NCBI GenBank assembly: GCA_037042185.1
Contig: JAXQJY010000033.1
Coordinates: forward strand, 1,488,001 to 1,552,000
Direction: 5' to 3'
Origin: Sordariomycetes sp. S80-01Y
Taxonomy: Eukaryota > Ascomycota > Sordariomycetes
Length of the DNA: 64,000 nucleotides
Under the pieces are notes generated by a model that did not search any database, was not told where the DNA came from, and was given only the letters and a program-made list of their open reading frames with translations. The number at the start of each line of letters is the position of its first letter. Within the stretch, counting starts at the first letter, position 1. The position numbers and the translations under genes were made by a program. Shown here in pieces: positions 2,633 to 9,410 of this stretch.

Positions 2633-3974
2633 CTACTTCCTCAGTCTCGTAGACCTTCGGTGTGTGGACGTCCCGGGCTGATCCTCGATCTTGACCTCTT
2701 CCTCCGTCTTCGGCAGCTGTCCATTCGAAACAACAGCGGACTTCCTCTTCTTCGTTGGTGGGCTTGCCTCCTCTTCTGCCCCGTCCTCCTCTTTGACTTT
2801 TGAAGACTTCCGTGCCTTCTTCTTTGGAACTTTGGCACCGTCATCCATTTCAGAGACTTTTGTCTTTGCTGCGGCGGGGATATGTCCTGTCTTCTTTTGC
2901 ACCCCTGGGGCGTAACAGCTCGTCCTCCCGCCAACGGTAATGAAGGCCAGCTTTTCGCCATTCGGTAACTTTGTGACAGCTTCCTTGGACCCTTTACCCC
3001 AGCGATAATTGAAAAGCCAGTGATCGGGGAACTGATCGGAATCGCCAAGCTTGTCAACCGCAGTCTGGCAGACGTATCTTGCAGAATCGAAGATCTTCTT
3101 CACCTCATCGTCATTGAACTCATCGCAGTACTGCTCCGGATGCACTTTTGCTTGGTAGAGCAACTCATCTGCGACCCAGTTGCCGATACCACTGATCATA
3201 GCTTGATCGAGCAGAAGTGCCTTGATCGGGACGTGACGCGCTCGCATCTTGCTCCGCAAGTAATCTTCAGTAAAGACGTCGAGATCATTGACCGGATCAG
3301 GTCCATTCTCAACTAAAGGCGAGTGCTTTCTAATATCCGCGCCGGGGCAGTCAACGAGTCTGACCCGCCCAAAGCGGCGGGCATCGGTGAAAGCAACCTC
3401 GACAGGCGGATCGGACTCTGTTGTCAAATGAAACTTCCAGAACCGAGGTGGCCACTGATCTTTTTCCGAGTCCTTCATTTTTTTGTAGTAGTTCGTGTAT
3501 GCCGTTTGTTCGCCTTTGATGTGAACCCATCCTACTTGGATTAGAGATGGGTAGTGGGAGTGCTTGGTGAAACACACCTGTCATGCCAAAATGCATCACC
3601 AAATGAGGTGGTTTGTCCAAAGTGATCCTGATCATCTTCAGTATTCACCCTACTGCAAACAATTGCAACAATTGACGTACCAGAAATATTTGCCTTGGCT
3701 CCCTGCTGAGACGACCTCAAGGCATGTCAGGCAAGTTTATCGCAACAACCTGTTGAACTGACCTGCCTGCCCGTCAGGGCCTTCTCGACCTCAGCACCAG
3801 TCGTTCCAACTTTACCAAAGACGTTTGCATCGTCAATGGCCGAGCATTTGGCTATTCTCTGTCCAACAAGCTTTAACTTGAGGAAGTGCGTGATGCGGGC
3901 GACTGCAGAGCGATGAGAACATATTATCGCATCTTCAGAAGAGACTTAAGCTTACCTTCAGCTATTTCAGGCAT
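2633..3974 (-). CDS. Fpg/MutM-type DNA glycosylase (formamidopyrimidine-DNA glycosylase)
   Basis: Five exons on the minus strand (3974-3956, 3902-3763, 3715-3681, 3627-3578, 3531-2633) encode about 380 residues. The protein begins MPEIAEV; mature Fpg enzymes use Pro2 as the Schiff-base nucleophile and Glu3 as acid. Next come the conserved Lys in QGKYFW, the HLVMHFGMTGW strand, and the helix-two-turn-helix segment around ISGIGNWVADELLYQAKVHP. The C-terminal GGRTSCYAPGVQ segment resembles the zincless finger of plant and fungal Fpg rather than a four-Cys zinc finger. A Lys/Glu-rich tail of about 80 residues follows, likely carrying nuclear signals. The enzyme would excise oxidised purines in base excision repair. 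The first four exons are tiny and were joined from GT-AG signals with continuous phase and sequence. It is divergent from the snoRNA host gene, sharing an upstream region of under 250 bp. Confidence 0.88.
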
Positions 3975-4246
3975 TCTTCTGACCGGCAATTGTGAGTTTG
4001 AAAGCACAACATGGGTGCTGGGCCGCAGCTCATTTCGTCATGTCGTGACGCGACGGCTCACGCCCGCCACGCGAAGCCACGTGATCGTGCTTAGTCACCG
4101 AGCTCCCACTGACAGGTCCCCACACAACCTACATTTTCTTCCCAGCTTTTTTCTTTTCCAACCATCCTCCATCAACAATCCAACACCGCGCTCCAAGCAA
4201 TTGGTAAGTCGTTTCTCTTTTCAAGCAACGTACGACAGCCTCTCCT

Positions 4247-4328
4247 TGTCGCTGATGACACCTATAACCGCAAACTAGAGTCTTTGACCACTGGAATGAA
4301 ACTAGTTTTACACGTCAGTCTGAAAGAC
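4247..4328 (+). ncRNA. snR78: Box C/D snoRNA, snR78-like (25S rRNA U2421)
   Basis: Box C CTGATGA is at 4252-4258 and box D CTGA at 4320-4323. TGTC before box C (4247-4250) pairs with GACA after box D (4325-4328), giving a terminal stem. The guide at 4271-4282 (CAAACTAGAGTC) is perfectly complementary over 12 nt to 25S 2418-2429. It lies just before a D' box TTGA at 4284-4287, and the fifth base upstream of D' (A4279) pairs with U2421, the site yeast snR78 methylates. The rRNA sequence and numbering are from memory of S. cerevisiae. Confidence 0.88.
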
Positions 4329-4480
4329 ACTCTTCGTCGCACGTTGCTCGCTATTTCGAAGCTTGGGGCTTTTTGTTAACAACGCCCACAGATGCTTCCA
4401 GCCAAGTGGCCAAACTCGGAGCGATGGACTTTCCGGTCGATTGAATATGGTATGTGCTTTCTCGTTCCTCCTTGCCCTCC

Positions 4481-4570
4481 GCTTCATGATGATCAATTTC
4501 GTTATAATATACGCTGGAAATTACCGTCTGAGTTTTCCTTGACGACAATAAATGGCTATGTCTGATGCTT
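4481..4570 (+). ncRNA. snR77: Box C/D snoRNA, snR77-like (18S rRNA U578)
   Basis: Box C ATGATGA is at 4486-4492, D' CTGA at 4528-4531, C' TGACGA at 4540-4545 and box D CTGA at 4562-4565. Upstream of D', bases 4519-4526 pair with 18S CGGUAAUU; one bulged A (4518) allows the helix to continue into CCAGC. The fifth base before D' (A4523) pairs with the U of CGGU, taken to be U578, the snR77 target. The terminal stem is weak. The identity also rests on its place between the snR78-like and snR76-like genes. Confidence 0.78.
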
Positions 4571-4682
4571 TTACCTACAAACAAATTCTTGCACACAGCA
4601 GTCAACAAGCACTCGCTGACAAGAAACCAGAACTATAGGCAAGGTATGCAACCTCGTTGACCTCGACCCCGATCGACCCTTC

Positions 4683-4776
4683 GTCCAAGTGATGAATTGG
4701 CACTGGGCTCCGATACACGAATGAGCAGACAAGCCACTTTGCGGCAGGCCTAGAAAACCTCGCCCACTGATTGGAC
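4683..4776 (+). ncRNA. snR76: Box C/D snoRNA, snR76-like (25S rRNA C2197)
   Basis: Box C GTGATGA is at 4689-4695 and box D CTGA at 4767-4770. GTCCAA (4683-4688) and TTGGAC (4771-4776) form a perfect 6-bp terminal stem next to the boxes. The guide at 4700-4708 (GCACTGGGC) pairs with 25S 2194-2202, and the fifth base before a degenerate D' box CCGA (4710-4713), G4705, pairs with C2197, the snR76 target. A C'-like TGAGCA follows near 4722. The rRNA sequence is from memory. Confidence 0.87.
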
Positions 4777-4921
4777 CTCTTCGGCACCGACCGCGACTAC
4801 CGTGATCCAGCTTGTTGCTAACTGGTCATGTCAAGTGCCAGTCTGATCATCGACAAGGCGACCCGTACCAGCCCGGGACTACGTCAACCTTGTGGTATGT
4901 TTAACCCTCTCGCACGTCGCC

Positions 4922-5013
4922 TCCATGTGATGAGCACAGATGACGAGTCTGAATCGAGTTTTCGTTGAAGACAAACATTTTTACCTACCATTCATGCATT
5001 TCCTGAACTTGGA
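4922..5013 (+). ncRNA. snR75: Box C/D snoRNA, snR75-like (25S rRNA G2288)
   Basis: Box C GTGATGA is at 4927-4933, D' CTGA at 4949-4952, C' TGAAGA at 4966-4971 and box D CTGA at 5003-5006. TCCA (4922-4925) can pair with TGGA (5010-5013). The guide 4938-4947 (AGATGACGAG) pairs with 25S 2285-2294, and the fifth base before D' (C4944) faces G2288, the snR75 target. A second stretch, 4988-4997, is complementary to 25S 2307-2316 but is off-register for D+5, so it may be accessory pairing. Confidence 0.86.
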
Positions 5014-5117
5014 TCCTTCTCATACCCATTCAACGCCTCTTGGATCATGGACGCTGATTAGAATCAAGACATTTAGGGACTGAGTAAGTCATCTCGTGGG
5101 CAAGCTGTCACCGCCCC

Positions 5118-5200
5118 GTCCTCCTGATGAACTGAATAAAAATGACAAGCATATGTCTGAGCTTCGGCTACGACGACAACGTGTTCTTCCCTGACCTACG
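5118..5200 (+). ncRNA. snR74: Box C/D snoRNA, snR74/U27-like (18S rRNA A28)
   Basis: Box C CTGATGA is at 5124-5130, D' CTGA at 5157-5160 and box D CTGA at 5191-5194. The guide 5144-5155 (GACAAGCATATG) is a perfect 12-nt complement of 18S CATATGCTTGTC near the 5' end of the rRNA. The fifth base before D' (T5152) pairs with A28, the site of yeast snR74 and vertebrate U27. The terminal stem is only about 3 bp. Confidence 0.88.
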
Positions 5201-5346
5201 ACCTCACCCTGTCATGGCCTTGCAGTCTTTGGTAGATCGGCGCTAACGGCATCAAGTAACCATGAAGGTGTAACGCCCACCTACATTTGCAGAGCTCGTT
5301 GGCAACACTGGTAAGCTTATACTACTTTCCCACTACCCCTTCCCGG

Positions 5347-5436
5347 TTCATATGATGTTACAAATATCACGACGGTCAACTGAGCCATACGCATTGATGA
5401 CCACCGCCTTTGACAAGGCATTTACCCTGACACACA
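5347..5436 (+). ncRNA. snR73: Box C/D snoRNA, snR73/U35-like (25S rRNA C2959)
   Basis: All four boxes are clear: C ATGATGT 5352-5358, D' CTGA 5380-5383, C' TGATGA 5395-5400 and D CTGA 5427-5430. The guide 5367-5377 (TCACGACGGTC) pairs over 11 nt with 25S GACCGTCGTGA (2957-2967), and the fifth base before D' (G5375) faces C2959, the snR73/U35 target. I could not assign a target to the guide before box D. Confidence 0.88.
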
Positions 5437-5499
5437 CCTTTACATGCGCTTTTTATTGCTTCCATACCATTCGGAATCCAGTGCTGATCAAGACGCTAG

Positions 5500-5867
5500 A
5501 CCAGATTTTTGCGACATCAGCGTAGACCCTATGATCTGCGGCTTCCAACCATGACATGTAGATGGCAGGAGAGACGAAGTCGTCTTGAACGTGGTGACAT
5601 TAGTGGACGGCTAGAACGCCTCCAAATACAGCTTCTGAGCAAGGTGCTGGGCAACAAACATCGGGCATTGTCCTAGGCATCTAGTACTACTCAGCAGCTC
5701 CCGCAACATCGCCCTCAAACGTATTACACCATAGGAAATAAAGAACGTATACATGGTATTTTCGATCCAGATCCTCACGCAATGAACGCATTGTGCTTAA
5801 TGTCACTCTGGAAGGACGGCGGGAAGTCGTGCTGCGACGGCTCGGGTGCGTACCTGGACATCGCCCG
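5500..5867. other. Last host exon and 3' flank; no snR72-like snoRNA seen
   Basis: This holds the probable last exon of the snoRNA host transcript and the 3' flank of the convergent Clr5-domain gene. I looked for a seventh C/D unit with a guide for 25S A876 (yeast snR72) and found no paired C and D boxes. Confidence 0.4.
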
Positions 5868-7792: not shown

Positions 7793-9410
7793 CTAAGCAA
7801 GGTCCTTCTTCTCATCCGTCGCACTGGTGGGGGCAGCGCTAGGCGCCGCACTCGGGGTCGTGGTGCTCGCCGCACCACCCGTGACACCAGCCTCCTGCGC
7901 CTTGTGATCAGAAGGGCTGACGCCAGCCTCCGTGGGTGAGTTCATCTCGTACTTCTCACTGGCGAGGCTCTGCATCTTGGGCTCTTGCTCCGCAACAGGC
8001 GACGTAGGCGTCGAACCGGCAGGCGAGAGCGGGGACTCGGGGTTCGCAGCTGCGGAGGCGTTGGAGATGCTGGAAATGACGCTGAACCACTTCTGTGCAT
8101 CGGCAGGCGTGTGCGCTTTGAAGGCCAGCTCGCTAGAGCCCGTAAGACGAGAAGACATGGTTTTGCTGCGGTCCTTGCCCTTGACGTTGAACTTTTCTCC
8201 CGAAGGAGTGCCGACGGTTGCGTCGGGCAGGTAGATGCTCAGCTCCGGCTTGGGATCTTCCCTGGCGACGTCGTTGTCCTTGAACTCGTGCAAGAACTTG
8301 GACGGGGTGACGACGTAGTAGCCTGTGCTCAGGCCCCAGCTGAGCTTGTTGCGGCTCTTGCGCTCGAGCGAGCCCTCGATCAGAGGCTTCGTCGAGGAAT
8401 GTTCCATGTTAGGGAACGTGATGGTCTCAACGCTCCGTGGCGCCTCGTTAGGCTGCGCCAGGCGGTCGGCGCTGCGTACCGTGAAGTTGGCCCATTCGAA
8501 CTCAGGGGGGACGCGCTGGATGTTGCCCAGCATGTCATTGTGCAGGGCGCCAGTCTTTTGCGCCTGACCAGCAGCAAGCTGGGTGAAAGCCTCCATAGCT
8601 TGTTGGATGACCTCGACAATGTGACCTTCAAACGTCGCAAAGTTATTTTGAACGGCAATCAGATCATTGTGGTGGTTGTTCTCCGCCATGACCTGCGTAG
8701 TCAAGCGGTGTAGGACTCCCTGCCTCAGCACGTACGGGTCGTTAGCCGAGTCGGGCTTTCCACCAGCCGAGTCAAAGCTGGCGGTGTGCTGACCTAGCAG
8801 CTCAATTTGCTTCTGTGTGTTGTTGCGAGACTTTTCCACATCCTTGGCACCCTTCTGCGCGCCGCTGTTGAGCTCCTTGGCCTTGTGCTTGATCTCCTTG
8901 TGCAGGCGCTCGAGGATGGGCAGGACGGAGCCTTTGATGGCCTTTTCGGTCTCGAGGTTGGTGTTGACGAGGGATTGGGTGTTGGAGCGCATGTTCTCGA
9001 AGAAGCCAGCGACGCCGCCAAGGGACTGGTCGAAGTGATGGCCCTCCTTCAGAGGGTTCTGGATTGCCTACGTGCAGGCGTTAGACGGATCCAGATCATA
9101 GTGAAAGTGCTGAACATACCTTGAGGGCGCGCTCATACTCCTTGGCGTGCTTTCCGTGGATCTTCTCCATGGCCTCCATGTAGCCCTCCAAGTAGACGAC
9201 AGCATGCTTCCAAGCTTGGAGTCGCTCAGCGAGCAAGCCAGCTGTCTGCAAGTATCCGTGTCAGCAGATACTCGACCTCAAGAGTCTGGGGCTTGTGCAA
9301 CTTACGTTGGAGGGATCAATCTCGGGAACGGCATCGTCGCTCAGAACGCTGGCGTTCGTTGCTGACCTGGTCGGCAGGTCCGTGGTGGTGGGCGAGGGAG
9401 CGGTCGCCAT
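7793..9410 (-). CDS. slm1: SLM1/SLM2-like F-BAR and PH domain protein (TORC2 effector)
   Basis: Exons 9410-9306, 9245-9120 and 9067-7793 encode 501 residues. After a short Ser/Thr-rich N-terminus comes a long helical F-BAR-like region (about 35-250: AWKHAVVYLEGYMEAMEKIH, then FFENMRSNTQSLVNTNLETEKAIKG). A PH domain follows (about 275-400: EGSLERKSRNKLSWGLSTGY to DAQKWFSVISSIS), then a disordered Ser/Pro/Ala tail. Yeast Slm1/2 bind PtdIns(4,5)P2 at eisosomes, relay membrane stress to TORC2 and control actin and endocytosis. The order and size of the domains fit this family. The role is inferred from the family. Confidence 0.85.

Follow-up and report, generated by a model that had tools for sequence, protein, structure and literature searches.

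Sordariomycetes sp. S80-01Y very probably carries fungal snoRNA cluster I in its filamentous-ascomycete form, with one box C/D snoRNA in each of six predicted introns

Introduction

One comparative study (PMC3596301) has described fungal snoRNA cluster I and the order of its genes, and reports it as intronic in those Euascomycetes, Basidiomycota and Rhizopus that were included; its conservation across fungi has been restated elsewhere (PMC5033589). For the three clusters treated in the comparative study, 323 of 460 snoRNAs were predicted to be intronic and 83 of those introns were verified (PMC3596301). The intronic layout is presented there as the older state, with splice signals lost on the Saccharomyces lineage; the finding of that loss is credited in the paper to Mitrovich et al. 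(2010). An intron in which snR78 and snR72 are fused was reported for all Euascomycetes studied by Luo et al., as well as for Yarrowia (PMC3596301), and the account of cluster I given for Pezizomycotina in PMC5033589 has no snR72 as a separate unit.

The snoRNA clusters of Neurospora crassa were followed by RT-PCR and are described as alternatively spliced, with non-coding, UHG/GAS5-like hosts that contain short ORFs only (PMC2780460). The table of that paper holds six snoRNAs, each listed as intronic and located on chromosome VI, that serve the same seven targets as the locus described here, and from this table we infer that CD5, CD24, CD12, CD7, CD21 and CD31 constitute N. crassa cluster I. 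CD5 is a double guide in the same table, directing 26S-Um2383 from D' (12 bp) and Am856 from D (10 bp), the equivalents of U2421 and A876, respectively (PMC2780460).

Materials and Methods

We analysed a 64-kb window, which is the whole stretch of DNA under study, and extended selected searches to the genome (30.9 Mb in 16 contigs). Guides were placed with the D+5 rule on working copies of yeast 18S and 25S rRNA, rather than on the species' own rRNA, because the species' own rDNA was not found in the assembly by pattern and DNA searches (the DNA search ignores very common words and was run without a positive control). An exact rRNA pattern gave no match in viral_contigs or genome_contigs. These working copies were self-consistent (1800 and 3396 nt), with the expected base at 57 of 57 2'-O-methyl sites, and the positions of these yeast sites, which served as guide targets, were assumed to be correct.

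A combined rule was used for the identification of complete units, in which three elements had to occur together: a C box (TGATGA/T), a CTGA lying 50-100 nt beyond the point where that box starts, and a guide scoring at least 8 whose D+5 position falls on a known yeast 2'-O-methyl site. This rule was settled once the region had been seen, including the acceptance of TGATGT as the C box of snoRNA 6.

Results and Discussion

The stretch from 4204 to about 5504 on the + strand is, with very little doubt, fungal snoRNA cluster I as it occurs in filamentous ascomycetes, its units running snR78/72, 77, 76, 75, 74, 73. A C box, a D box and a D+5 guide to an rRNA site on the yeast sequence were read in six of six units, and Rfam together with the guide/box scan gave the cluster I order snR78/72-77-76-75-74-73 on this single strand. 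SnoRNA 1 (4253-4323, measured like the others from C box to D box) has its C box at 4253, a D' box (TTGA) at 4284 and its D box (CTGA) at 4320, and its D' guide (4271-4282) forms 12 bp with 25S U2421. No Rfam family matched this unit up to an E value of 5. SnoRNA 2 (4487-4565; D' box at 4528), a snR77-type unit, pairs with 18S U578 from 4519-4527 over 9 bp with one G-U, and matched the Afu_300 family (RF01509) at 73.1 bits (gathering cut-off 40). SnoRNA 3 (4690-4770), of the snR76 type, pairs with 25S C2197 from 4699-4708 over 10 bp with one G-U; it matched Afu_513 (RF01514) at 73.6 bits (gathering 48) and snR76 itself (RF01209) at 37 bits, below the gathering cut-off of 55. We equate Afu_300 with snR77 and Afu_513 with snR76 because overlapping sub-threshold matches to snoR77Y and snR76 agree with the guides.

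SnoRNA 4 (4928-5006) is a snR75 unit (RF01185; 72.8 bits, gathering 40) with a 10 bp guide at 4938-4947 for 25S G2288. SnoRNA 5 (5125-5194) is of the snR74/U27 type, with a 12 bp guide at 5144-5155 for 18S A28 and a sub-threshold match to SNORD27 (U27, the counterpart of snR74; 31.9 bits against a gathering cut-off of 52, E 0.0069). SnoRNA 6 (5353-5430), of the snR73 type with the C box TGATGT, has an 11 bp guide at 5367-5377 for 25S C2959 and matched snR73 (RF01207) at 35.4 bits, slightly below the gathering cut-off of 37 (E 0.002). Rfam thus supports five of the six units, three above the curated gathering cut-offs and two at sub-threshold scores with the family of the right target.

These results bear out most of the sequence-only reading, which had placed six C/D snoRNAs on the + strand, one per intron, in the order of their yeast counterparts. 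The box and guide scan recovered six units, each inside its own predicted intron; all six of the proposed D' targets (U2421, U578, C2197, G2288, A28 and C2959) were reproduced at D+5 on yeast rRNA, and these targets follow snR78, 77, 76, 75, 74 and 73. The Rfam search that the reading had proposed as a check agreed for five of six units. Its description of the locus as an SNR78-SNR73 cluster was right in identities and order and fell short at one end; snR72 is not missing, as its A876 guide is fused into snoRNA 1.

This seventh guide, overlooked in that reading, lies at 4311-4318 upstream of box D of snoRNA 1; by the D+5 rule its 8 bp duplex targets 25S A876, the snR72 site, so that the locus covers the full set of seven yeast-cluster targets. 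When the 20 nt upstream of box D were shuffled by mononucleotides, 39 of 200,000 shuffles equalled the A876 guide. Across the 30.9 Mb genome, a pattern of C box, 25-55 nt, A876 guide and CTGA matched once, at snoRNA 1 itself. On this basis snoRNA 1 looks like a snR78/72 double guide. Two further, chance-like A876 matches (scores 8.5 and 9) lie on the - strand of the window and have no boxes. A looser and shorter snR72 pattern, for which about 0.3 chance matches are expected by our own arithmetic, found one other string of C box, guide and D'-like ATGA on another contig, at 1501-1531 of locus L004 (G000:C13:1402268-1402298). This string was set aside as a separate snR72, having no Rfam match up to an E value of 1 and its next CTGA about 108 nt on, and is probably due to chance.

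Some pairings departed from or extended the plain guide duplexes. The U578 duplex of snoRNA 2 is broken by an extra A relative to perfect complementarity with yeast 18S, and the same extra A is present in the Rfam Afu_300 consensus. Guide duplexes can be supported by accessory pairing nearby. SnoRNA 2 has an additional 12 nt complementarity (4505-4516 with 18S 593-604) upstream of its U578 guide, and snoRNA 4 has one at 4988-4997 with 25S 2307-2316; both look like accessory pairings that would aid the guide, and similar scores arise by chance in the same scan. An 8 bp match of snoRNA 6 to 25S A2280 at box D was discarded, as it begins 4 nt from the box.

Splice-site signals were read around every unit. 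A donor lies 33-49 nt 5' of each C box and a YAG past each box D (six of six units), and a branch-like site was seen in five of six; the predicted introns measure 149-209 nt. Intron 1 (4204-4391) runs from GTAAGT through a branch-like GTTAAC to CAG. Intron 2 (4450-4598; GTATGT to CAG, with an alternative CAG at 4601) is the one with no branch-like site after box D. Intron 3 (4644-4841) has GTATGC, a branch-like GCTAAC and CAG, intron 4 (4895-5076) has GTATGT, a branch-like GCTGAT and TAG, with an alternative end at 5061, and intron 5 (5084-5292) has GTAAGT, a branch-like GCTAAC and CAG. Intron 6 (5311-5504) runs from GTAAGC through a branch-like GCTGAT to CAG, with an alternative TAG at 5499, the end given in the sequence-only reading. 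The predicted internal exons measure 58, 45, 53, 7 and 18 nt, with a second candidate 3' splice site in introns 2, 4 and 6.

The longest ATG-initiated ORF of the predicted spliced RNA, over three frames and with arbitrary outer ends and some guessed splice sites, was 41 aa. Short ORFs of this kind fit a non-coding, UHG/GAS5-like host. Mammalian UHG and GAS5 host genes likewise have a non-coding host with one C/D snoRNA per intron, and differ in carrying other snoRNAs and forming a separate gene family. Use of the acceptor at 5076, which has branch-site support, would leave a predicted exon of just 7 nt (5077-5083) between the snR75 and snR74 introns. The host may therefore be a cluster I gene partway to losing an exon, its two flanking introns being removed by stepwise or recursive splicing of the kind published for clusters II and III; we consider this unlikely.

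The same features might in principle have arisen by chance, as C/D-like boxes and short complementary stretches that serve no function. The guide match alone (score of at least 8, known site) is indeed unspecific and common: the window holds 68 such matches (+ strand, 37; - strand, 31), of which 7 fall in the cluster, and dinucleotide shuffles of the region (n = 300) gave a mean of 0.74 guide hits and a maximum of 4. Under the combined rule, however, both strands of the 64 kb yielded six units with seven guides, all at 4253-5430 on the + strand, with none on the - strand and none elsewhere, so that all box-bearing units lie within 1.3 kb on one strand and in yeast order. Over 1000 shuffles of the region the rule found 0.012 units on average and never more than 2, and whole-window shuffles of one strand (n = 30) a mean of 0.3 units (maximum 2). 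With three Rfam matches well above their cut-offs in addition, a chance origin is extremely improbable. We give equally scant credence to the idea that the locus is a decayed copy of a cluster that works from another site in the genome. Nothing in the data favours it directly, and the one thing that leaves it room is that the assembly searches failed to recover rDNA and perhaps other sequence as well. Against it, the boxes and guides are intact, and the sole genome match reported for snR75 (RF01185) at E ≤ 0.001, a count that is a lower bound, was the unit in this cluster.

A further alternative concerns processing, since S. cerevisiae cuts the same cluster from an unspliced polycistron by RNase III and exonucleases (PMC5033589) and the units here might be released in this yeast-like manner instead of from introns. 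Consensus donors and YAG acceptors, however, bracket every unit, and the Euascomycete copies of the cluster are reported as intronic (PMC3596301). In that study, EST or RT-PCR evidence confirmed 83 of the 323 introns predicted for three clusters across all fungi, and the cluster transcripts of N. crassa were checked by RT-PCR (PMC2780460). Release from an unspliced transcript is thus very unlikely for this locus, and a single snoRNA in each of six introns remains the preferred reading.

Splicing, processing, expression and methylation can be predicted from the boxes, the guides to yeast rRNA, the order and the splice-site signals, all of which were read in the DNA itself. The host gene would have little coding potential, as in UHG/GAS5, with six introns that hold one box C/D snoRNA apiece. 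Splicing and debranching would be followed by exonuclease trimming of each intron down to the C/D core, and the resulting snoRNPs, with fibrillarin (Nop1), would methylate 18S A28 and U578 together with 25S A876, C2197, G2288, U2421 and C2959 (yeast numbering).

When set beside the published table for N. crassa (PMC2780460), the locus shares six C/D snoRNAs, seven rRNA targets and a CD5-type unit that guides both the snR78 and the snR72 site. The two differ in the strength of the second guide of that unit, which is 10 bp at the A876 equivalent in CD5 and 8 bp here, and in the box D guide of CD24 to U5-Am62 (15 bp), for which the counterpart snoRNA 2 has no such pairing. The U5 of this genome, found as one confirmed match, offered snoRNA 2 at best 6 Watson-Crick pairs as a second target, which was not useful, and a scan of the whole 3.1 kb locus placed none of the best matches listed for snoRNA 2 in U5. 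The likeness to the Euascomycete cluster I described in 2013 (PMC3596301) extends to the same order, to the placement of every snoRNA in an intron (predicted, in the present case) and to the fusion of snR72 into snR78, and nothing that we tested sets the two apart. Compared to the SNR78-SNR72 polycistron of S. cerevisiae, the order and all seven targets are kept; yeast, however, has seven snoRNAs on an unspliced transcript, whereas here there are six in predicted introns, the snR78 unit having taken in the snR72 guide.

The conservation of order across the split between yeast and filamentous fungi, which had been proposed from the sequence alone, is correct and had already been published in 2009 and 2013 (PMC2780460, PMC3596301). 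The accompanying proposal of a switch in expression mode also corresponds to a published change, with its direction to be amended, as the intronic form is given as the older and the change is placed on the Saccharomyces lineage through loss of splice signals (PMC3596301). The cluster is real, and both its kind and its details are already known; it is an ordinary one because its order and intronic form have been described in filamentous fungi. The locus adds one species to a well-studied case in which snoRNA order is kept while gene architecture shifts, intronic in filamentous fungi and exonic in Saccharomyces. It supplies an annotation for this part of the window and raises no fresh question alone.

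Three ORFs were noted in the neighbourhood of the cluster. A LOV/PAS ORF lies at 1349-1801 on the + strand, and Pfam and PDB searches gave Envoy and Vivid, proteins of Trichoderma and Neurospora, as its closest solved structures. This likeness agrees with a filamentous ascomycete as the source, and so does the fusion of snR78 and snR72. On the - strand, the ORF at 2633-3577 is formamidopyrimidine-DNA glycosylase-like with an H2TH domain, and the ORF at 7793-8992 has a BAR-like and a PH domain.
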